This document shows, one piece after another, positions 12,835-28,768 of a stretch of DNA of 64,000 bases. Every line of letters starts with the position of its first letter. Within the stretch, counting starts at the first letter, position 1. Under the pieces are notes generated by a model that saw nothing but the letters and a program-made list of their open reading frames with translations, was not told where the DNA came from and ran no database searches. The stretch is from Caproiciproducens faecalis (GTDB lineage Bacteria > Bacillota > Clostridia > Oscillospirales > Acutalibacteraceae), in the NCBI RefSeq assembly GCF_019448085.1, contig NZ_JAGFNZ010000001.1:558001-622000 (forward strand). The letters run 5' to 3'. The translations under genes were made by a program, and so were the position numbers.

Positions 12835-12900
12835 TCATTTTGTAAAGCGCTTATACAAAGCGCCGAGTGATTTCTTTTCAATACGCGATACATAGGAGCG
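12835..12900 (-). pseudogene. sigK: 3' fragment of sigK (last 21 codons), separated from the 5' part by a skin-like element
   Basis: Read on the minus strand this encodes RSYVSRIEKKSLGALYKRF-TK and a stop, the conserved end of sigma-K region 4.2. It has no start codon, and the codon two positions upstream in frame is a stop inside the element. It is not a decayed gene but a separated exon-like segment. Recombination between the 14-bp repeats at 12887-12900 and 19892-19905 fuses it in frame to the 207 codons encoded upstream of the repeat at 19906-20526. I typed it as pseudogene only because it is not translatable as it stands. Confidence 0.9.
12887..12900. repeat. 14-bp direct repeat, left junction of the sigK intervening element
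   Basis: GATACATAGGAGCG, identical to 19892-19905. On the minus strand it encodes the R-S-Y-V-S stretch of sigma-K. Immediately inside the element 12896-12913 forms one arm of the reconstructed attP. Confidence 0.92.
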
Positions 12901-12923
12901 CGCTTATGGTAAGTAAGTTGCCT

Positions 12924-14501
12924 CTAAGAAATCGCCTCCGGCTGGCGGAAGCGAAAATGAATGATAATCTGTTTGTCTTCGGTCAGCTCCACACGCTCAA
13001 TCAGGCTGACAAGCAAATCTCTGCTGCAATACGCGGTGTCGACAAAACGCTTTACAAGCTGCTTTGCAATCTCTGTTTGCTTATCGGGAGAATCATCCGG
13101 CGTATCAATCTCCGAGAGCTTTTGCTCGAGCGCAGACCGTTCTTCTTTAACCTTCCGGTAAATGCGTTCAAAATCCTGATCGTCCAGAAGTCCTGTCAGC
13201 TTATCCATGTACATTTTGTCGAGGTGAGCCGTTAGGCTTTCTATTTTACCCTGCAACGCGGCAATCTCATTTTCATGATCTTTCGTTTGCCGCGCTTCCG
13301 CAAGCGCCTGTTCCGCTATCGGAATCAACTCTTCTGCATGGAAATACGGCTGACATACTTCCCGTACTTTTTGTAATACCGCATTGGTCACAGTTTCTTC
13401 CTTGATGGAATGACAGGTGCAGACACCGGCCTTCGTGAAGCGCTGATAGGTACGGCAGACAAAGTATAGACAATCCTTACCTTTGGCGTTCGGGCGGTTG
13501 ATGACTGCCAGCGGATAACCGCATTCGTGGCAATAAATCAGTCCCTTGAGCAGAAAATCATAAGTGCGGGAACGGGTCGTTTTGCGGCTGTTCACCATGC
13601 GCTGTACCTTGTCAAACATTTCAGGGTCGATCAGCGGTTCGTGCGTACCCTCCACAACAATCCAATTTTCACGCGGCTGCCGGATCGTTTTTTTCGATTT
13701 GTAGCTGATCTTTTTGCTGCGCCCCTGAACCATGTTGCCGATATACGTTTCATTTTGCAGCATATCGGAAATCCGTTCGCTGCTCCACCTTCCGGCGTAT
13801 GGCCCGACGCGTCCCTGATTTAATCCGGCGTAAGATGCCGGAGTCGGAATTTTCTCCGCGTTGAGCTGAACCGCGATTTGCCGACAGGACATTCCCGTGA
13901 GCGCCATATCAAAGATGCGCCGCACGATTGGTGCCGTTTCCTCGTCAATGATGATTTTATTTTTATGATGCGGGTCCATTTTGTAGCCATATCGGGGTTT
14001 TCCTCCGATAAATAATCCCTTGCGCTGCTTGTCGTGCTTGACACTTTTGATTTTTTTTGAGATGTCTTTCGCATACATGTCGTTCATGATCGCGCGGAAC
14101 GGCGTGATGTCGTTGGCGGTGCTCTCCACGCCCGTATCGATTCCATCCAATAAAGATATGTAACGCACGCGGTTTTCCGGAAAATACCGTTCCATGTAGT
14201 GCCCGGTCATGATATAGTCACGGCCAAGACGGGAGAGGTCTTTGGTGATGACCATATTGACCTTACCGGCCTCAATATCCGCAATCAGCCGATTGAAGCC
14301 TGGCCGGTCGAAATTTGTGCCGCTCCAGCCGTCGTCTATATAAATGTCAAAGACGTCCAGCTGCCGCTCTTGTGCAAAGGTTTTGAGCATGGAGAGTTGG
14401 TTGTTTACGCTTTCAGATTGCCCTTCGTTATCATCCTCTTTGGATAACCGAATATATAGTCCTACTTGATAGTCCATTGGATTGCATATTTCTAAAGACA
14501 T
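12924..14501 (-). CDS. large serine recombinase, probable sigK-element excisionase (SpoIVCA-like)
   Basis: 525 residues. The N-terminal resolvase catalytic domain has nucleophile Ser20 in YIRLSKEDD and the arginine-containing DLSRLGRDY near residue 90. A recombinase domain (YGYKMDP...MSCRQIAVQLN) follows. A zinc ribbon has CHECG near residue 345 and CHSI near 385. A coiled coil lies at about 410-480. This is the TnpX/TndX/SpoIVCA architecture. ATG 14501 has GGAGG 6 bp upstream. It lies inside the element next to the sigK 3' fragment, on the same strand as sigK. Expected role: excise the element in the mother cell during sporulation. A directionality factor is not identified. Confidence 0.93.
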   Translation of the reverse strand: MSLEICNPMDYQVGLYIRLSKEDDNEGQSESVNNQLSMLKTFAQERQLDVFDIYIDDGWSGTNFDRPGFNRLIADIEAGKVNMVITKDLSRLGRDYIMTGHYMERYFPENRVRYISLLDGIDTGVESTANDITPFRAIMNDMYAKDISKKIKSVKHDKQRKGLFIGGKPRYGYKMDPHHKNKIIIDEETAPIVRRIFDMALTGMSCRQIAVQLNAEKIPTPASYAGLNQGRVGPYAGRWSSERISDMLQNETYIGNMVQGRSKKISYKSKKTIRQPRENWIVVEGTHEPLIDPEMFDKVQRMVNSRKTTRSRTYDFLLKGLIYCHECGYPLAVINRPNAKGKDCLYFVCRTYQRFTKAGVCTCHSIKEETVTNAVLQKVREVCQPYFHAEELIPIAEQALAEARQTKDHENEIAALQGKIESLTAHLDKMYMDKLTGLLDDQDFERIYRKVKEERSALEQKLSEIDTPDDSPDKQTEIAKQLVKRFVDTAYCSRDLLVSLIERVELTEDKQIIIHFRFRQPEAIS

Positions 14502-14540
14502 ATACTGCCTCCGCAAATAAGTGACCGTTCATGATGAATA

Positions 14541-14693
14541 TCATACATGTGATGTCGCCGGCATTGCAGGTTTGCGGCCATCCCGCGCAAGTTCCCGCTG
14601 AAGAAAGAAACGAAAGGAACGAAACAGTATTTGGCAAGCCGTCTCTCCTTTGTCCGGAAAGACGCATGTCACTGTTATCTCAGGCTTACTCAT
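14541..14693 (-). CDS. small protein encoded just upstream of the recombinase
   Basis: 50 residues starting MSKPEITVTCVF with a central ILFRSFRFFLQRELARD segment. A G-rich ribosome site lies 6-7 bp before the ATG, and the gene ends 39 bp before the recombinase start, so the two are probably cotranscribed. Small proteins of this look lie beside large serine recombinases in Tn4451-type elements, from memory of that gene order. A role as accessory or directionality factor is only a guess. AAGGTATG at 14724-14731 reads CATACCTT on the minus strand and resembles a sigma-E -10 element; no convincing -35 goes with it. Confidence 0.5.
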   Translation of the reverse strand: MSKPEITVTCVFPDKGETACQILFRSFRFFLQRELARDGRKPAMPATSHV

Positions 14694-14879
14694 CAATCTG
14701 CCCCCTTTATGCTGCGATAGTAAAAGGTATGCAAATCCGTGTAATTTTTGCCTGTCCGTCAAAAAAGAACCGAAATAGGAAACAGCCGCACTGTATATTT
14801 CCTATTCGCACATGTTAAATTTTGACGGTGAGATTCCTCCTTTGCGTTGAAATGAAATTCATTATCAAAGCAACCGCTA

Positions 14880-14935
14880 TTGACAAATCAGCTATTATGC
14901 GTTACTATATAGCAGTAGTAAGTTATACATAATAG
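14880..14935 (+). promoter_or_regulatory. promoter with nested operator dyads for padR
   Basis: TTGACA (14880-14885) and TACTAT (14903-14908) are 17 bp apart. Two inverted repeats embrace the -10 region: CTATTATG/CATAATAG (14892-14899 and 14928-14935) and TTACTA/TAGTAA (14902-14907 and 14916-14921). They suit PadR autorepression. Confidence 0.7.
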
Positions 14936-14951
14936 CAAAGAGGTGATTGTA

Positions 14952-15290
14952 CTGGAAAACCTAACGGAAATGCTCAAAGGCGTGCTTGAGGGCTGCGTCC
15001 TTGAAATTATAAGCCGCGGTGAAACCTACGGCTACGAAATCACGCGGCGGTTGAATGCCCTCGGCTTCACAGATGTTGTGGATGGAACGGTGTATACCAT
15101 CTTGGTTCGATTTGAAAGAAGCAAGCTGGTAGATGTTACAAAAAAGCCTTCAGACATGGGCCCGCCGCGAAAGTTTTTCGCGCTCAACGACGCGGGGCGT
15201 GAGGAACTGCGGAAGTTCTGGGAAAAATGGAAGTTCCTATCATCAAAAATTAGTGAGTTAAAGGAGAAAAGTAATGAATTTCTGGGATAA
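14952..15290 (+). CDS. PadR-family transcriptional regulator
   Basis: About 112 residues. The winged helix is YGYEITRRLNALGF, then VVDGTVYTILVRFERSKLV, with the PadR hallmark GPPRKFFALNDAGREEL. The start is uncertain: CTG 14952 (MENLTEMLKGVLEG) is 9 bp from AAAGAGG and matches the family N-terminus, whereas GTG 14943 directly touches it. It overlaps the next gene by 17 bp. PadR next to DUF1048 genes is a recurrent Firmicute arrangement that usually controls an ABC transporter; none is present here. Confidence 0.85.
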   Translation: MENLTEMLKGVLEGCVLEIISRGETYGYEITRRLNALGFTDVVDGTVYTILVRFERSKLVDVTKKPSDMGPPRKFFALNDAGREELRKFWEKWKFLSSKISELKEKSNEFLG

Positions 15291-15621
15291 AGTTACCGGC
15301 AATGATATGACAAAAGAGTTGCAATCTTTTGAATCGCGAGCCAAAAAGCTGCCGGCTGATTATCAAGCGGCATGGGAAAACATGAAGGCCAGTCTTTGGC
15401 CGCACTCAGATTTCACCGGCCGCAACCTCATGCCAATTCTTGACGGTGTGCTTGGCCTGTTCGAAGAAACGGCCGCTGACGGTCAAAGTGCCCAGGAGGT
15501 TTTGGGTGACGATATCAAAGGCTTCTGTTCAGCGCTGGTCGGCGAAGATGGGGCAAAGTCTTTTCGTGACAAGTGGCGCGAGCAGCTCAACAATAATATT
15601 GCTAAGAAATTAGGGAAATAG
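15274..15621 (+). CDS. DUF1048-family protein
   Basis: 115 residues, mainly helical, soluble and without a signal peptide. It shares with the next gene the pattern KxLPxDYQ...GxLxLFE...VxGxDxxxFCxxL, the mark of DUF1048 proteins. Translation is coupled to padR by overlap. Function unknown; members commonly accompany PadR regulators. Confidence 0.75.
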   Translation: MNFWDKVTGNDMTKELQSFESRAKKLPADYQAAWENMKASLWPHSDFTGRNLMPILDGVLGLFEETAADGQSAQEVLGDDIKGFCSALVGEDGAKSFRDKWREQLNNNIAKKLGK

Positions 15622-15630
15622 GAGGATAAA

Positions 15631-15981
15631 ATGAGCATACAAGATATGATCGAAGGTAAAAAAGAGTGGCGGGCGCACATGGCGCGTGTCAAAGCGCTCC
15701 CGCAGGATTATCAGATTGTTTATAAAGAAATTCAAAAATATCTCTTCAAGGTCGGCCCTGTTGAGCTAACCGAAGGGACGGGTCTGCTCTCAGGAATTGT
15801 CGATCTCTTTGAAGGGGATGCGGCCCTGGGGAAAGGCGTACTCGAAGTGACGGGCAGTGACGTAGCGGCTTTCTGCGACGATCTAATCAAAGATTCAAAA
15901 ACTTACGCTGACATCTATCAGGAATCTGTTGACCAGGAAGTTAACAAGGCCATGAAGAAGGCTACGGATAAAACAAAGTAA
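15631..15981 (+). CDS. DUF1048-family protein, tandem paralogue
   Basis: 116 residues, preceded by GGAGG and 9 bp after the first DUF1048 gene. ALPQDYQIVYKEIQKYL and VTGSDVAAFCDDLI align with the upstream paralogue, so the pair arose by duplication or acts as a hetero-oligomer. Function unknown. Confidence 0.75.
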   Translation: MSIQDMIEGKKEWRAHMARVKALPQDYQIVYKEIQKYLFKVGPVELTEGTGLLSGIVDLFEGDAALGKGVLEVTGSDVAAFCDDLIKDSKTYADIYQESVDQEVNKAMKKATDKTK

Positions 15982-16000
15982 AAGATAAACGGAAAGCAGC

Positions 16001-16114
16001 ATGAAATTTGATCGGCAAACCATTTCTATCGGAGGACTTGTAACCAAGGCCTCCGATATTTTTATGGGTGGACAGGTCAAGCCCTGTATACTCGGCGTAG
16101 CTCATATTTCGTAG
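16001..16114 (+). CDS. short ORF or remnant after the DUF1048 pair
   Basis: 37 codons beginning MKFDRQTISIGGL, with a GGAAAG site 5-10 bp upstream. It occupies the position where a transporter gene follows PadR/DUF1048 in other genomes. No homology is recognised. The rest of 15982-16258 holds no gene except the promoter described next. Confidence 0.25.
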   Translation: MKFDRQTISIGGLVTKASDIFMGGQVKPCILGVAHIS

Positions 16115-16187
16115 CTGTCCGCATAATGACAGGAGGCCGGTTCCCCGGATTGTTTCCTTAAAATATGGAATGATTTATAATATTCTA

Positions 16188-16238
16188 TTGTAACCGGTAT
16201 TACAATGTGATATTATTTTGTCTGTAACCAGTATTACA
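16188..16238 (+). promoter_or_regulatory. promoter with two palindromic operators for the ChrB-like/MFS operon
   Basis: Two copies of TGTAACC(G/A)GTATTACA (16189-16204 and 16223-16238) are 34 bp apart, each with TGTAA/TTACA half-sites. The first covers the -35 (TTGTAA 16188-16193). The -10 TATTAT is at 16211-16216 after 17 bp, and the second copy covers the transcription start. Confidence 0.7.
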
Positions 16239-16258
16239 TTTAATGAGAAGGCGATTTT

Positions 16259-16795
16259 GTGAATCAAAGAGAATGGAGCGCTATCAATTATACGCTGCCA
16301 AGGGAGCCGTCAAGGGCGCGGGTATCCATATGGAGAAAGCTGAAAAAAATCGGGGCGATCAGTATCCAGCAGTCCATGTGGATACTGCCTTTGAGCGATG
16401 AAAATTATAATCTGCTTAATGATATCAAAGATGAGGTTTCCCGGAACGGCGGCGAGGCATTTGTCATGACGATCTCGACAGACGAGGATGGGGAAAAAAG
16501 AATCATTAATAAATTCAACGCGGCAAGAGATGAGGAATATGGAGAACTTCTGGAGCAGTGCGAGGAATTTTTCAAAGAGATCGACAAAGAGACGGCCAGA
16601 AAGAACTTTACGTTTGCTGAAATCGAGGAAAACGAGGAAGAACTTAATAAACTGAAACAATGGTATGAAAAAATAGCCGCGCGGGATTCTTTCGGCTCGC
16701 CGCTTCAGGAAAAAGCAGAATCAATGCTGGCGAAATGTGCGGATATTCTGGATGGTTTCTGTGACAAAGTATATGAATTTAATGAGAAAGCGTAG
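16259..16795 (+). CDS. ChrB-domain protein
   Basis: 178 residues with GTG start and GAGAAGG 7-8 bp upstream. The N-terminal half (YTLPREPSRARVSIWRKLKKIGA...MWILPLS) is the ChrB N-terminal pattern. The C-terminal half is a charged helical region. ChrB of chromate-resistance operons is a chromate-sensing regulator; the family also occurs beside unrelated transporters. Here it leads a two-gene operon with an MFS transporter 9 bp away, and the operator pair upstream suggests it is the regulator. No ChrA transporter is present. Confidence 0.7.
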   Translation: MNQREWSAINYTLPREPSRARVSIWRKLKKIGAISIQQSMWILPLSDENYNLLNDIKDEVSRNGGEAFVMTISTDEDGEKRIINKFNAARDEEYGELLEQCEEFFKEIDKETARKNFTFAEIEENEEELNKLKQWYEKIAARDSFGSPLQEKAESMLAKCADILDGFCDKVYEFNEKA

Positions 16796-16804
16796 GGAGC
16801 GGAA

Positions 16805-17974
16805 ATGAAGCAGAAAAAAGTGGTATCCAATATTGTGCTAATCGGGCTTGTCAGCCTGTTTGTTGATATGAGTACCGAAATGGTCTATCCTTTGGTTCCG
16901 CTGTTTCTGACCGCTACGCTTGGTGCGTCGCCCGCCATCGTAGGGATCATCGAAGGAATTGCCGAGAGTATTGCATCGCTTCTCAAGGTATTCAGCGGCT
17001 ACATCGGGGATGTGCACCACAATAAAAAGCGTCTTACTTTTATTGGTTATTCGACGTCTGTCTTGTATAAGGTGTTTCTTCTCCTTGCAGCATCATGGCC
17101 CGGCGTTTTATTGGCGAGAGTCATTGACCGCACCGGAAAAGGCATCCGCACCGCACCGCGCGATGCTCTTGTAGCGCAGTCAAGTGACGGCAAAAAACTC
17201 GGAGGAGCGTTCGGGCTGCATAAGATGCTGGATATGGCCGGTTCCTCTCTTGGCGCGCTGCTCGCTTATTTTTTCGTTGCAGCCAACGTTGGTTTTCACC
17301 AGGCGTTTCTGCTTTCCATCATCCCGGCGGTGATTGGAATTTTGATTATTTTTTCCGTCAGAGAAGACAAAAACGGTGTTACAGCAAGTGAGAAGCTCAC
17401 TTTGAAAGGGCTAAAGCTTGATAGAAAGCTGAAAATGTACCTTGCTGTCATATTTGTTTTCTGCCTCGGCAATTCATCAAACACGTTTTTGCTTCTGAAA
17501 GCTCAAAAGCAGGGCTTTTCAGCGTCACAGGTCATGCTGCTGTATCTGATTTTCAATGTGGCCGCCTCCGTCCTTGCCATTCCGTCAGGCAAATTATCCG
17601 ACAAGTTCGGCAGAAGCAGGATTCTTGTGCCGGGTTACCTGATTTACGGCCTTGTCTATCTCGGCTTTGCTTTTCTCTCCGCCAAGTCCACTATCTTGGT
17701 TCTGTTTATCGCATATGGCGCGTACACCGCGTTTATCAGCGGCGCGGAAAGGGCTTTTATTGCTGAAAATGCGCCGACAGGATTAAAGGGAACCGTTCTT
17801 GGGATTTACGGAATGCTGCAAGGTGTCGGACTGCTGTTGTCGTCAATCATAGCCGGATTCCTTTGGGACAGAATAAATTCCGGCGCTCCGTTCCTGTTCG
17901 GCGGCGTTCTTGGAATTATTTCAGCCGTCCTGATAGAAATTACACTTGGAAGGAATAATAGTGTTACGGAGTAA
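16805..17974 (+). CDS. MFS transporter
   Basis: 389 residues with twelve likely membrane helices. Motif A-like GYIGDVHHNKKR lies after helix 2 and its repeat SGKLSDKFGRSR after helix 8. The motif LLARVIDRTGKGIRTAPRDALVA in the first half is typical of a bacterial MFS subgroup found in metal- or drug-resistance loci. It is cotranscribed with the ChrB-domain gene. Substrate not readable from sequence; chromate or another oxyanion is only suggested by the neighbour. Confidence 0.82.
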   Translation: MKQKKVVSNIVLIGLVSLFVDMSTEMVYPLVPLFLTATLGASPAIVGIIEGIAESIASLLKVFSGYIGDVHHNKKRLTFIGYSTSVLYKVFLLLAASWPGVLLARVIDRTGKGIRTAPRDALVAQSSDGKKLGGAFGLHKMLDMAGSSLGALLAYFFVAANVGFHQAFLLSIIPAVIGILIIFSVREDKNGVTASEKLTLKGLKLDRKLKMYLAVIFVFCLGNSSNTFLLLKAQKQGFSASQVMLLYLIFNVAASVLAIPSGKLSDKFGRSRILVPGYLIYGLVYLGFAFLSAKSTILVLFIAYGAYTAFISGAERAFIAENAPTGLKGTVLGIYGMLQGVGLLLSSIIAGFLWDRINSGAPFLFGGVLGIISAVLIEITLGRNNSVTE

Positions 17975-18109
17975 AAATGATACCGGGGTGAGGGGATGGA
18001 ACCGAAAAGGGCTGGGGGGACAAGATAGCTGACGGGCCCGCGATGCTTTGGGCAACCGATGGCTTTTCGCTGATTGCAGGCTTCGATTTTCTCCTTTCTG
18101 ATTGGCGCA

Positions 18110-18142
18110 CAAAAAAGGACAACCGATTTCTCGATTGCCCTT
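18110..18142 (-). terminator. terminator of the nitroreductase/FMN-reductase operon
   Basis: On the minus strand a 12-bp hairpin with two G-T pairs and a GAAA tetraloop (AAGGGCAATCGA / TCGGTTGTCCTT) is followed by six T. The region 17975-18196 otherwise holds no gene. Confidence 0.85.
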
Positions 18143-18196
18143 ACATGGTGGCAGTTATTTACTTTGAGATGCTGGTATTCCGGCTTCGTGCGCTCT

Positions 18197-18724
18197 TCAG
18201 TCTGCGTAAAACACATGATTTTCCTTGCGAGGCGCGGCTTGGGGAATCGGCCCGTCGGGATAGCCCAGCACACAGTGACCGATACCCTCGTATTCGCCTT
18301 CGATCCCAAGAGATTTGAGAATTGCTTTGCCCTCGTCGCTTTCGAATTCTTGCTTCGCCCGGTTAATCCAGCAACTGCCGATACCGAGGGAATGCGCCGC
18401 CAGCATCAGATTACCCATAACAAGGCTGCCGTCGTAGACGCAGTTCCTCCAGTTTTTCTCCGCCAGCACAATGAGCACGACAGGTGCGCCGTAGAACGGG
18501 TCGAAATCCGGTTCCCAGCCGCCGATCTCCGAATTCATCTTGGAAAGCCTGTCACGCAGTTCCTTGTTCGTCACGGCGACGATGATGGCCGATTGCCTGC
18601 CCATCCCGTTGGGGGCATAGGTACCCGCCCGGATGATCTTGTCGATAATTTCCTTCGGCACGGAGTCCGGCTTATATTGGCGGATACTTCTTCTTTCTTC
18701 CATTGCTTTCAGCACTTCGTTCAT
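18197..18724 (-). CDS. nitroreductase-family FMN enzyme
   Basis: 175 residues. Motifs are ERRSIRQYKPDSVP near the N-terminus (FMN phosphate contacts), APNGMGRQSA, and SLGIGSCWINRAKQEF in the C-terminal half. The family reduces nitroaromatics, quinones or flavins with NAD(P)H in the cytoplasm. ATG 18724 has GGAGG 8 bp upstream. It follows the flavodoxin-like reductase gene by 17 bp and is cotranscribed with it. Confidence 0.85.
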   Translation of the reverse strand: MNEVLKAMEERRSIRQYKPDSVPKEIIDKIIRAGTYAPNGMGRQSAIIVAVTNKELRDRLSKMNSEIGGWEPDFDPFYGAPVVLIVLAEKNWRNCVYDGSLVMGNLMLAAHSLGIGSCWINRAKQEFESDEGKAILKSLGIEGEYEGIGHCVLGYPDGPIPQAAPRKENHVFYAD

Positions 18725-18741
18725 GTGTAAAACCTCCATGT

Positions 18742-19278
18742 TTACAGATTTTTTCCCAATTTATATGCTTGCTGTGGATAGTCGGTCTTCTCAATATCCT
18801 TCCGATCAGAACAATCGTAAGCCAGTACTTTTCCGCAGTCCTGCCATTTTAGATAGTGGAGCATTTCCTGGTAGCTGCCTACAATACCGTTCATGATTCG
18901 GGGAGCCGCATCGGCAACGGTCACGAGCAGCACCGCCTTTTTCCCAGAGCCCACCAAATCATTGTCAATACCGTGGAAGCGGTCGATGACGGTTTTGATT
19001 TGCGCGGATGCACCGTGATAGTACAGCGGCGTAACAAAAACCAATAAATCCGCTTTCTTCAATTCCGGGTACAGTTTCATCATGCCGTCTTCAAATACGC
19101 ACGGAAATTTACCACATTCGCATTTATCACAGCCAATACAAGGATGGACTTCTTCAAATGCCGCATCAAAACGAAACACTTCGTGTCCAACTTCTTTTGC
19201 GCCTTTTATAAACTGCTCAGCCAGCAAAGCTGATGTTCCGGCTTTATGAGGGCTGCCGGTAACCATCACAATTTTCAT
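18742..19278 (-). CDS. flavodoxin-fold NAD(P)H:FMN reductase
   Basis: 178 residues. The N-terminal GSPHKAGTSALLAEQFIKGA is the FMN-phosphate loop. The CIGCDKCECGKFPC cluster near residue 48 is typical of this reductase subgroup in anaerobes. TPLYYHGASAQIKTVIDRF is the second flavin loop. ATG 19278 (MKIVMVTGS) has GGAG upstream. Divergent from hxlR, which probably controls it. Role: electrophile, quinone or flavin reduction. Confidence 0.85.
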   Translation of the reverse strand: MKIVMVTGSPHKAGTSALLAEQFIKGAKEVGHEVFRFDAAFEEVHPCIGCDKCECGKFPCVFEDGMMKLYPELKKADLLVFVTPLYYHGASAQIKTVIDRFHGIDNDLVGSGKKAVLLVTVADAAPRIMNGIVGSYQEMLHYLKWQDCGKVLAYDCSDRKDIEKTDYPQQAYKLGKNL

Positions 19279-19311
19279 AGATCGTACTCCTTTCGGATGT
19301 TGCACTGTGGA

Positions 19312-19383
19312 TTGCACTCCGTTGTTCCTTATTGTATAATAGTATAAATCAACATACAAGTATGCACTTTATTGACGCATACT
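19312..19383. promoter_or_regulatory. overlapping divergent promoters and operators (FMN reductase / hxlR)
   Basis: Rightward: TTGCAC (19312-19317), 17 bp, TATAAT (19335-19340). Leftward, TTGTAT, 17 bp, TACAAT can be read on the minus strand over the same DNA. CATAC-AA-GTATG (19353-19364) and AGTATGC...GCATACT (19359-19365, 19377-19383) are nested inverted repeats that suit an HxlR dimer. Confidence 0.65.
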
Positions 19384-19402
19384 ATCTCAGAGGGAAGTAT
19401 AA

Positions 19403-19729
19403 ATGGAAAATTTAGATGGCTATACAAAAATATCGGACACTCCATACGGTTACACACTAAGCATTATAGGCGGCAAATGGAAGATGATTATCCTCTATCT
19501 GCTGTCTAATCATAAAGTGGTTCGTTATAATGAATTACATAGAATGATTGGCTCGATTACCTACAAAACACTAAGTGTTCAACTGAAAGAGCTGGAAGCA
19601 GACGGGCTGATTGTGCGCAAAGAATATCCACAGATACCGCCAAAGGTGGAATACAGCCTTTCTACCAAAGGGGAATCCCTAATCCCGATTATGGATGCAA
19701 TGTGCGATTGGGGACATGAGCATCAATAA
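19403..19729 (+). CDS. HxlR-family transcriptional regulator
   Basis: 108 residues. The family signature is GYTLSIIGGKWKMIILYLL, followed by the winged helix RYNELHRMIGSITYKTLSVQLKELEADGLI and wing RKEYPQIPPKVEYSLSTKGESL. HxlR proteins of this size often sense electrophiles through a cysteine; one Cys is seen near the C-terminus (MCDWGHEH). Divergent from the flavin reductase genes, its likely targets. Confidence 0.88.
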   Translation: MENLDGYTKISDTPYGYTLSIIGGKWKMIILYLLSNHKVVRYNELHRMIGSITYKTLSVQLKELEADGLIVRKEYPQIPPKVEYSLSTKGESLIPIMDAMCDWGHEHQ

Positions 19730-19760
19730 CGCCGATTAATCTACCCGCAAATTAAATACT

Positions 19761-19800
19761 AAAACAGGGCGTTCCATTCATTGAAGCGTCCTGTTTTATT
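19761..19800 (+). terminator. terminator of hxlR
   Basis: Hairpin arms AAAACAGGGCG and CGTCCTGTTTT with one G-T pair, ending in TTTTATTG. This is the last feature inside the element before the right junction. Confidence 0.7.
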
Positions 19801-19878
19801 GTTATAGCTTGTCTGCTTCATAATTCAAAAATTGATGAATAACCGCATCGATTTTTATGTATGATACCACTGCTTACA

Positions 19879-20526
19879 TTAAGCGCGCTCGGATACATAG
19901 GAGCGGGAAATGCCCAGTTTCTGCGCCACTTCGCGCTGGGTCAGCGGACTACGTCCCGTCAGACCGTACCGCAGTTCAATAATGGTCTGCTCTCTGGGGG
20001 ACAGTACCTCACGAATATACCTCTTGAGCTGCTCGGATTTGATTTTACAGTCAAGGTTGTCAACGATGTTGTCTTCCGTGGCCATGACATCCATCAGTGT
20101 CAGCGCGTTTCCGTCCTTATCGGTGTCGATCGGTTCGTTGATGGAGATATCCTGCGCGGTCTTTTTGGAGGAGCGGAAAAACATCAGCACTTCATTTTCA
20201 ATGCATCGGGCCGCATAGCTGGAAAGGCGGATTCCCTTGCTGCTGTCAAACGTGTTTACCGCTTTGATTAACCCGATGGTTCCAATGGAAATCAGATCAT
20301 CCTGGTCGTTTGAGTTGGCGTAGTATTTCTTGATGATATGGGCGACCAGACGTAAGTTGTGTTCAATCAGTTCATTCTTTGCCTTCAGATCCCCGTTTTT
20401 CAGCCGTTCAAGACAGTCCCGTTCCTCCTGTGCCGTAAGCGGTCTGGGGAAGGAACCCGAGCCAGTGACGTGAAGAATAAAAAACAGCAATCCGGAGAGC
20501 GCAAATCCAAGTACGGCACCAATCAT
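19879..20526 (-). CDS. sigK: RNA polymerase sigma-K factor, 5' part, interrupted by the skin-like element
   Basis: 215 codons as it stands. The first 25 residues are hydrophobic (MIGAVLGFALSGLLFFILHV) and match a sigma-K pro-sequence. Region 2 (HNLRLVAHIIKKYY...DLISIGTIGLIKAVNTFD) and region 4 (LSPREQTIIELRYGL...LTQREVAQKLGISRSYVS) follow. After the repeat the frame runs into element DNA and stops after S-E-R-A, so region 4.2 is truncated. Excision joins codon 207 to the 21 codons at 12835-12900, giving 228 residues. Sigma-K directs late mother-cell genes for coat and cortex. Both DNA rearrangement and pro-protein cleavage would therefore gate it. Confidence 0.95.
   Translation of the reverse strand: MIGAVLGFALSGLLFFILHVTGSGSFPRPLTAQEERDCLERLKNGDLKAKNELIEHNLRLVAHIIKKYYANSNDQDDLISIGTIGLIKAVNTFDSSKGIRLSSYAARCIENEVLMFFRSSKKTAQDISINEPIDTDKDGNALTLMDVMATEDNIVDNLDCKIKSEQLKRYIREVLSPREQTIIELRYGLTGRSPLTQREVAQKLGISRSYVSERA
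19892..19905. repeat. 14-bp direct repeat, right junction of the sigK intervening element
   Basis: GATACATAGGAGCG, identical to 12887-12900. The 18 bp just inside the element (19873-19890) form the other arm of the reconstructed attP. Confidence 0.92.
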
Positions 20527-27388: not shown

Positions 27389-28768
27389 ATGGAGAGAAAC
27401 GGAAACGCAGATTTCTTTACGGTAACTCCCGCAATTTTGGAGCTTACCGACCTTTGTAAGAACCACAGTACGATCGATCCCTCGTTGTTCGCCAAATATG
27501 ACGTGAAACGCGGTCTGCGCGATATTAACGGAAAAGGCGTTCTGACCGGTTTAACGGAAATATCGGATATCATTTCCTCCAAGGAAGTCGACGGAAAAAG
27601 CGTGCCCTGTGAAGGAGAGCTGTATTATCGCGGCATGAATATTCAGAATATTGTACGCGGTTTTATAGCGGAGAACCGCTTCGGCTTTGAAGAGACGACT
27701 TATCTGCTCCTGTTCGGCGAACTGCCGACAGAGGAAAAGCTGGAGGAGTTCAAAAAGCTGTTGTCCAAATACAGAACCCTGCCGACTAATTTTGTGCGCG
27801 ACATCATTATGAAGGCCCCCTCGTTCGATATGATGAACACACTGGCAAGAAGTGTGCTTACCCTTTACGCTTATGACGAAAGGCCGAACGACACCTCTCT
27901 GCCGAACGTGCTGCGCCAGTGTCTGGAAATGATCGCGCTGTTCCCGCAGCTTGCGGTTTACGGTTATCAGGCCTACGCCCACAATATGGATCCAAATTAC
28001 AGCTTCTTTATCCATGCCCCCAAACCGGAGCTTTCCGTGGCGGAGAACATTCTTTACATGCTGCGTATCAATAATCAATATACCGCGCTGGAAGCCCGTA
28101 TCCTTGACCTTGCGCTCGTTCTGCACGCGGAGCACGGCGGCGGCAACAATTCCAGCTTTACCACCCATGTGGTGGCTTCTTCCGGAACGGACGCGTACTC
28201 GGTCATTGCGGCGGCGCTCGGTTCCCTGAAAGGGCCGAAGCACGGGGGCGCGAACATCAAGGTCATGATGATGTTTGAGGATATGAAGCAGAATATTGAC
28301 GACTGGGAAGACGAGGATAAGGTTGCCGACTATTTGAGCAGGCTGCTGAACAAGCAGGCCTTCGATCGGGCCGGTTTGATCTACGGGATGGGTCACGCGG
28401 TATATTCGCTGTCCGACCCGCGCGCCAATATTTTCAAGAAATTCGTGCAGAGCCTATCCGAAGAAAAGGGCCTTACCAAAGAGTATAAGCTTTATTCTCT
28501 GGTTGAGCGTCTTGCTCCGGAAGTGATCGGGCGCGAGCGTAAGACCTATAAGGGCGTCAGTGCGAACATCGACTTTTACAGCGGGTTTGTTTACCATATG
28601 CTCGGTCTGCCGCCGGAACTGTTTACGCCCGTTTTCGCCATGGCGCGTATTGCCGGATGGAGCGCGCACTTAATGGAGGAACAGATCAACGTCGGCAAAA
28701 TCATCCGACCCGCATACAAGAGTATTTCCGCCCACAGGGCCTATGTTCCCCTCCACGAAAGATCATAA
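27389..28768 (+). CDS. gltA: citrate synthase
   Basis: 459 residues. Active-site segments are LHAEHGGGNNSSFTTHVVAS (His), GPKHGGAN, GMGHAVYSLSDPRA (His) and NIDFYSGF (Asp). It condenses acetyl-CoA and oxaloacetate to citrate. The N-terminal extension of some 75 residues before YRGMNI places it with the longer clostridial citrate synthases; a methylcitrate synthase cannot be excluded. AAGGAGA precedes the ATG. A terminator follows. Confidence 0.92.
   Translation: MERNGNADFFTVTPAILELTDLCKNHSTIDPSLFAKYDVKRGLRDINGKGVLTGLTEISDIISSKEVDGKSVPCEGELYYRGMNIQNIVRGFIAENRFGFEETTYLLLFGELPTEEKLEEFKKLLSKYRTLPTNFVRDIIMKAPSFDMMNTLARSVLTLYAYDERPNDTSLPNVLRQCLEMIALFPQLAVYGYQAYAHNMDPNYSFFIHAPKPELSVAENILYMLRINNQYTALEARILDLALVLHAEHGGGNNSSFTTHVVASSGTDAYSVIAAALGSLKGPKHGGANIKVMMMFEDMKQNIDDWEDEDKVADYLSRLLNKQAFDRAGLIYGMGHAVYSLSDPRANIFKKFVQSLSEEKGLTKEYKLYSLVERLAPEVIGRERKTYKGVSANIDFYSGFVYHMLGLPPELFTPVFAMARIAGWSAHLMEEQINVGKIIRPAYKSISAHRAYVPLHERS

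Follow-up and report, generated by a model that had tools for sequence, protein, structure and literature searches.

In the genome of Caproiciproducens faecalis (GCF_019448085.1), sigK is split by foreign DNA with identical ends. The window analyzed here is a stretch of 64,000 nucleotides from contig NZ_JAGFNZ010000001.1 (positions 558,001 to 622,000), and all coordinates given below are those of the window. Comparison with related genomes makes it very likely that the intervening DNA is a skin-like, sigK-intervening integrative element from a compact, non-phage family, and that sigK is restored by its developmental excision. The recombinases of this family sit at a single sigK codon, Val211 in the window, which falls in the part encoding the C-terminal helix-turn-helix, such that a truncated frame is left. 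Elements of this kind are already known as skin, described in a 2016 paper as an exception in clostridia (PMC5025042). The novelty lies in the family, which is compact, non-phage as far as seen, crosses host families, and occurs in two orientations. It is large, splits sigK in many gut Clostridia, and is apparently undescribed: no description of a compact sigK-element family was found in the literature searched, a search outside which two relevant papers lay.

The split sigK gene and its empty sites

The 5' part of sigK (19895-20526, minus strand) contains codons 1-210 together with the GT of codon 211. Its open reading frame (ORF; 19879-20526, minus) continues into the element and ends after 215 codons, the final few of which are element sequence. 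The 3' part lies at 12835-12891, also on the minus strand, and comprises codon 211 from its GT, codons 212-228, and the stop codon; an intact equivalent is present in G296, a genome from the same genus. A 14-bp repeat, GATACATAGGAGCG, is found beside the 3' part (12887-12900) and beside the 5' part (19892-19905), with no third copy in the window even when up to two mismatches are allowed, and at least two matches to it arose in one of 100 shuffles. When the flanks are joined across the repeat, the product is a SigK of 228 residues that ends in ...GISRSYVSRIEKKSLGALYKRFTK followed by a stop, and whose N-terminus is a hydrophobic stretch. The joined protein passes the TIGR02846 SigK equivalog model with 301.3 bits, while the truncated form fails with 281.7; the cut-off of 298.65 is nevertheless marginal in this group, as the intact SigK of G296 scores 298.3. 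The excised circle would measure 7,005 bp, and the element has a G+C content of 46.9%, compared with 50.0% for the window.

An earlier reading, made from the sequence alone (the sequence-only reading), had described most of this anatomy, and the present analysis bears it out: a sigK frame that stops after codon 215 in foreign sequence, a 14-bp repeat at both junctions, a joined frame of 228 codons without a frameshift, an element of about 7.0 kb, and a large serine recombinase inside it at one end (12924-14501, minus), with the three domains expected. One detail requires correction. The last 21 codons were said to lie apart from the rest of the gene, and while there is indeed a distant 3' fragment, it supplies 17 codons plus one base beyond the predicted crossover within codon 211, and the figure of 21 includes the repeat. 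The small upstream ORF, the wider family, and the crossover dinucleotide, all treated below, had no place in that reading.

The sequence-only reading had counted a second intact sigK, in the absence of junction reads during sporulation, as a refutation; no second SigK was found in the species' own assembly, which consists of 8 contigs and is 97% complete. The next-best match, on contig C5, is best fit by a SigE model (361 bits, cut-off 339); on the broader SigK subfamily model it also clears the threshold, with 260.9 against a cut-off of 252, but its score of 248.2 falls short of the SigK equivalog. The genes for SigE, SpoIIID, and SpoIVA were all found in the same genome.

Relatives with an uninterrupted sigK, which the sequence-only reading had proposed for comparison, provide empty sites. 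The script-joined window flanks align through the junction to G296 (81%), G152 (77%), and G234 (79%), all from the same genus, and in none of the three was a recombinase match present at E 1e-100. In G025, also of this genus and assembled as a single contig, another element, 5.7 kb long and with a recombinase 59% identical to that of the window, interrupts sigK at the same codon as in the window. An equivalent sigK arrangement is also found in named isolates (for example L078, L105, L107, and L128). The skin-like interpretation is thus supported by the empty sites, by the failure to find a second SigK, by the recombinase domains and attachment (att) site anatomy described below, and by the equivalent arrangement in relatives.

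A recombinase family and its codon in sigK

The large serine recombinase of the window measures 525 amino acids from an ATG behind GGAGG, and contains resolvase, recombinase, and zinc-ribbon domains. Residues Y16, R18, S20, R91, and R94 are invariant in 12 recombinase sequences, and S20 is presumably the catalytic serine. Among solved structures, the SP-beta integrase YokA (9dxh) is the best relative over most of the protein (E 6.4e-29), although TnpX (2mhc) outscores it over the N-terminal domain alone. The SP-beta phage, whose integrase is YokA, splits spsM (PMC4191935).

In a family-level sample of 300 genomes, SigK was matched in 221 (threshold E 1e-60) and the recombinase in 18 (threshold E 1e-100); among the 150 SigK matches listed, a hand count gave 10 that end at residues 212-217 of 228. 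Across the order, the recombinase was found in 21 of 394 sampled genomes (E 1e-130), as a single copy each at that threshold and under 8 family codes, and the sigK junctions of these carriers were checked in part only. A set of 93 recombinase loci was then assembled from the best 80 of 481 relatives in a collection scan, 12 loci chosen by handle, and the window. The set falls into 45 clusters at 90% identity, and near-duplicates were kept in it (G213 and L077 are one genome, and the recombinases of G028 and G031 are more than 99% identical). The recombinase 3' end abuts the sigK 3' part in 78 of the 93 loci, as opposed to 1 of 846 control windows. In 9 further loci, the recombinase end abuts the sigK 5' part in antisense, which implies that those elements are inserted in the opposite orientation. 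With both orientations taken together, a sigK fragment is present at the recombinase end in 87 of 93 loci, and this type of sigK element therefore recurs widely in a gut order. It is firmly supported that a dedicated family of recombinases integrates at sigK.

Twenty of the elements are complete, with both sigK parts on the fetched stretch, and all of them break the gene at the identical codon. Their sizes range from 2,382 to 15,197 bp, and joined frames of 225-241 residues are obtained from 19 of the 20; L127, which belongs to the set, is cut within sigK by the end of its contig and so has a partial joined frame, while L110 was excluded because its join was not sensible. The smallest element, the 2.4-kb L115, has just 771 bp between sigK and the recombinase, with a small ORF within (two antisense frames, of 139 and 72 codons, are mechanically present in the same stretch).

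The ends of the window element carry the two halves of an imperfect inverted repeat, a recombinase-side attP arm (12898-12913, minus) and a distal attP arm (19873-19888, plus). The predicted crossover is a GT on the minus strand, at 12890-12891 and 19895-19896. The 14-bp repeat was rejected as a required core, since the string shared at the crossover shrinks to GT alone in four complete relatives; the repeat is incidental, with GT itself as the likely crossover. As the join codon is a valine (GTN), the reading frame could by itself force a GT, and the attP arms were therefore used as an independent test. With arms taken from both ends of the 20 elements, complementarity is 0.74 for a center between G and T and does not exceed 0.34 for any of 16 alternative centers. 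At 13 nt from the recombinase-side arm, all 68 forward loci with a recognizable arm have GT and all 9 such reverse loci have AC; forward loci with several arm matches were scored by the GT match when present, and no forward locus with an arm was without GT. Thirteen loci had no recognizable arm (10 forward, 3 unassigned), and three further unassigned loci stood outside this count. In serine integrases, the central dinucleotide sets the orientation of insertion, and the pairing of GT with forward and AC with reverse loci fits this rule. A tree was built from 54 recombinases, of which 7 are reverse (unrooted, with outgroups excluded); the reverse orientation requires five changes on it, and a single origin of the reverse state was obtained in 0% of 200 bootstrap trees. 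The two orientations provide a natural experiment on crossover dinucleotides. The insertion of Bacillus subtilis skin reportedly lies elsewhere in sigK.

The recombinase module also appears to have moved. The recombinase of L076 is 90% identical to that of the window, and over the 10 kb fetched the two elements match only in the first 1.87 kb, which corresponds to the recombinase, the small ORF, and the promoter region. This independent assembly repeats the recombinase-sigK junction, with 88% identity over the recombinase module and 80% over the adjoining flank. Recombinase identity does not correlate with SigK identity (r = -0.10 for 190 pairs drawn from 20 loci; L110, L127, and L089 are omitted, and L104 and L109 are taken in with partial SigK fragments), which indicates that the module passes from host to host. 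Blautia wexlerae (L109) and an Oscillospiraceae locus (L095), for instance, have recombinases that are 96% identical and SigK proteins that are 51% identical.

Some loci show other arrangements. In L098, the recombinase end has no sigK junction, but 7.6 kb downstream lies a sigK 5' part in antisense, accompanied by an attP-like arm; this locus is possibly rearranged or tandem. In L155 (L181:14108-15965), a pyrE-like gene, not sigK, lies beside the small ORF, the recombinase, and an attP-like site that has both of its arms, and neither a sigK fragment nor a second copy was found on the contig. Two contigs from a viral collection, L168 and L169, carry a recombinase of the same type followed by a sigK 3' fragment, and in this they resemble bacterial sigK loci. 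Finally, one family genome has two sigK matches of equal score and identity, inverted and 9 kb apart (G225:C8:18186-18836 and 27831-28481).

The small upstream frame and probable developmental excision

Directly before the recombinase gene lies a small ORF of 50 amino acids (14541-14693, minus). The recombinase and this tiny upstream protein, of 34-61 residues, are the two genes that remain constant across elements, and the small ORF is found in 87 of the 87 loci with room for it on the fetched stretch, directly upstream in 86 and at 2.1 kb in one. Its profile, built from six starting sequences, matched 73 loci initially and 85 once iterated, to which G205 (a longer frame) and L152 (the locus at 2.1 kb) were added; among 29,557 frames, there was only one extra match elsewhere at E 0.01 (L104, antisense). 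Substitutions fall 69/75/142 by codon position and dN is below dS in 19 of 19 pairs, which indicates coding constraint. In the viral collection, the small ORF is present by 6 recombinase relatives of at least 51% identity, and near 7 more distant recombinases (36-42%) the profile gave no match past E 0.5.

The position of the small ORF is that of Skr in B. subtilis, and on this analogy it is likely to encode a recombination directionality factor. B. subtilis skin resembles the window element in that sigK is split by an element with its own large serine recombinase, SpoIVCA, and the 64-aa Skr is described as a proven directionality factor, encoded directly upstream of spoIVCA and under the control of sigma-E and SpoIIID (PMC6957869). 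Skr, however, is reported to overlap spoIVCA, whereas here, in 82 of 85 loci, the small ORF terminates ahead of the inferred start of the recombinase. In skin(Cd) of Clostridioides difficile, likewise a Clostridia sigK element, the recombinase gene (CD1231) adjoins the sigK 3' part, the att sites have inverted repeats as they do here, and CD1234 is a directionality factor under sigma-E and SpoIIID (PMC5025042). Unlike the window element, skin(Cd) is described as having 19 genes and a constitutive recombinase in a separate unit from its factor, and C. difficile SigK as having no pro-sequence, where the window SigK starts with a hydrophobic stretch. The gin element of Bacillus cereus is also non-phage and also interrupts a sporulation gene, and its 42-aa GirX is a proven directionality factor (PMC5595907); yet its target is gerE, its reported size is 28.6 kb, and it has three recombinases, GirC among them, rather than one.

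Upstream of the small ORF, at 14728-14757 (minus), is a promoter-like motif, GGACAGGC-N18-CATA, which may represent a SpoIIID-like box and a sigma-E-type -10 element. We take GGACAAG to be the SpoIIID box, and a literature search for the letters of this box found nothing. A CATA-type -10 occurs in 71 of 83 upstream regions, compared with 27 in shuffles. A soft motif (GGACARGC with at most one mismatch, then CATA) occurs in 23 of 53 nonredundant upstream regions, against averages of 0.25 in the Markov control and 0.05 in randomly chosen windows of real sequence, and in 22 of these 23 the spacing from motif start to CATA is 26-27 nt. Sigma-E and sigma-K promoters are reported to have a common -10, and the octamer CATATAAT, reported for a C. 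difficile sigK promoter (PMC3789822, PMC517825), is also found before the window sigK. Control of the excision genes by sigma-E and SpoIIID is fairly probable.

In the mechanism that we propose, sigma-E together with SpoIIID would transcribe a two-gene unit in the sporulating mother cell, first the small directionality factor and then the recombinase. The factor would redirect the recombinase toward excision instead of integration, with release of the circle and exact rebuilding of sigK. Sigma-K would thus be made in the mother cell only, while the spore chromosome would retain the element, and the module would travel between hosts as its cargo changes.

The chief alternative is that a selfish or cargo-bearing element breaks sigK without developmental excision, in which case carriers would lose or lack sigma-K function and excision would be rare and random. 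Exact in-frame rejoining follows automatically from insertion by a serine integrase, and the restored frame is therefore not proof of developmental control. In addition, the unlinked recombinase and SigK identities would suit a mobile parasite, and the arrivals of the elements may be recent. However, both SigK parts are strongly constrained between the window and G025, despite their interruption by different elements: dN/dS is 0.016, and the far 18 codons differ at 7 nucleotides and at no residue. The conserved small ORF directly before the recombinase, accompanied in part of the family by the conserved motif, also argues against a simple parasite, as does SpoIVA, which was found in 9 of 9 genomes, among them all 7 tested with a split sigK. 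This alternative is consequently improbable, and developmental excision of the element, as judged from these comparisons, highly probable.

Several observations nevertheless weigh on the other side. Recent arrivals would equally yield a low sigK dN/dS. A search of the species' own assembly for the circle junction, with up to two mismatches allowed, gave no match, and the YabG family was found in 0 of 9 genomes (G000, G025, G296, G152, G213, G028, G205, G155, and G202), split and intact alike. As for regulation, 30 of the 53 nonredundant upstream regions are without even the soft motif; the strict motif has 3 sites in the species' own genome and 5 in a reversed control, so that no genome-wide signature is shown; and GGACAA occurs in 3 of 18 sigK upstream stretches, whose starts were placed only roughly, which leaves control common to sigK and the small ORF unsupported. 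The small protein has no match in Pfam, PHROGs, or PDB (a PDB profile search gave three matches, all with E above 1 and taken as chance), and its profile gave a weak match (E 0.0017) downstream of a 32%-identical recombinase in L176. Lastly, the standard junction with sigK is missing from five loci (G141, L098, L126, L152, and L155), and L090 stops too early.

An apparently truncated sigK in a gut genome need not signify a loss of sporulation. Isolates that carry members of the family exist, and the minimal nature of the system, a pair of small genes plus a pair of short sites in the DNA, makes it suited to studying how directionality factors act.

Cargo and the phage question

The remainder of the window element is cargo. 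On the plus strand are a PadR-family regulator (14943-15290), two DUF1048 proteins (15274-15621 and 15631-15981), a ChrB_N-domain protein (16259-16795), an MFS transporter (16805-17974) that reaches the cut-off of none of the NCBIfam families listed, and an HxlR-family regulator (19403-19729). A nitroreductase-family protein (18197-18739) and a member of the NADPH-dependent FMN reductase family (18742-19359) are encoded on the minus strand. Cargo varies by element: where the window has redox and efflux genes, G025 has a barstar/ribonuclease pair, L127 shikimate genes, and L138 a chemoreceptor.

That the element is a degenerate prophage, like the skin of B. subtilis, has some points in its favor. 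The recombinase has a match in PHROG 95, a family of phage integrases, the known sigK elements of Clostridium tetani and Alicyclobacillus are described as prophages (PMC5553647, PMC13141910), and the cargo of relatives includes phage-like matches, namely tail-fiber or tail PHROGs, and Phage_Mu_F and DUF859 in G025. Yet a Pfam scan of the 8 window cargo proteins found no phage family, structural and packaging families included, and no conjugation family. Among 92 of the 121 ORFs of at least 75 aa from complete elements, 76 Pfam families were matched, and in the 25 of these that were listed, capsid, portal, and terminase are absent, while tyrosine integrases are present. A phage or plasmid source of the recombinase was likewise not seen, as none of 734 matches in 50,697 phage records (top among the matches listed, 36%) and none of 477 matches in plasmid records reaches 60% identity. 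B. subtilis skin is described as a 48 kb prophage-like region (PMC13141910), while the family here spans 2.4-15.2 kb and its smallest member leaves only the 771 bp, small ORF included, for anything besides the recombinase. A prophage origin of this kind is thus very improbable.

An assembly artefact at the repeat, which the 8 contigs and the repeats at the element ends might suggest and which the sequence-only reading had raised against itself, can practically be dismissed, as the same split is present in the single-contig G025 and equivalent junctions recur in the independent L076 and in named isolates.

A broader picture, to which we would give an even chance, is that of a minimal two-gene developmental DNA intron, reduced to as little as 2.4 kb, that would spread freely between families of gut Clostridia by way of one sigK codon and act as a dock for exchangeable cargo. 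Its cost to the host would be low because its own promoter reads the mother-cell program, and its orientation would have flipped several times, with GT exchanged for AC.

Among the individual cargoes, the element of Marasmitruncus massiliensis (L078:4710-7322) encodes a collagen-repeat protein bearing a BclA C-terminal domain, which is a spore-surface type of gene, and its neighbor is a glycosyltransferase-family gene.

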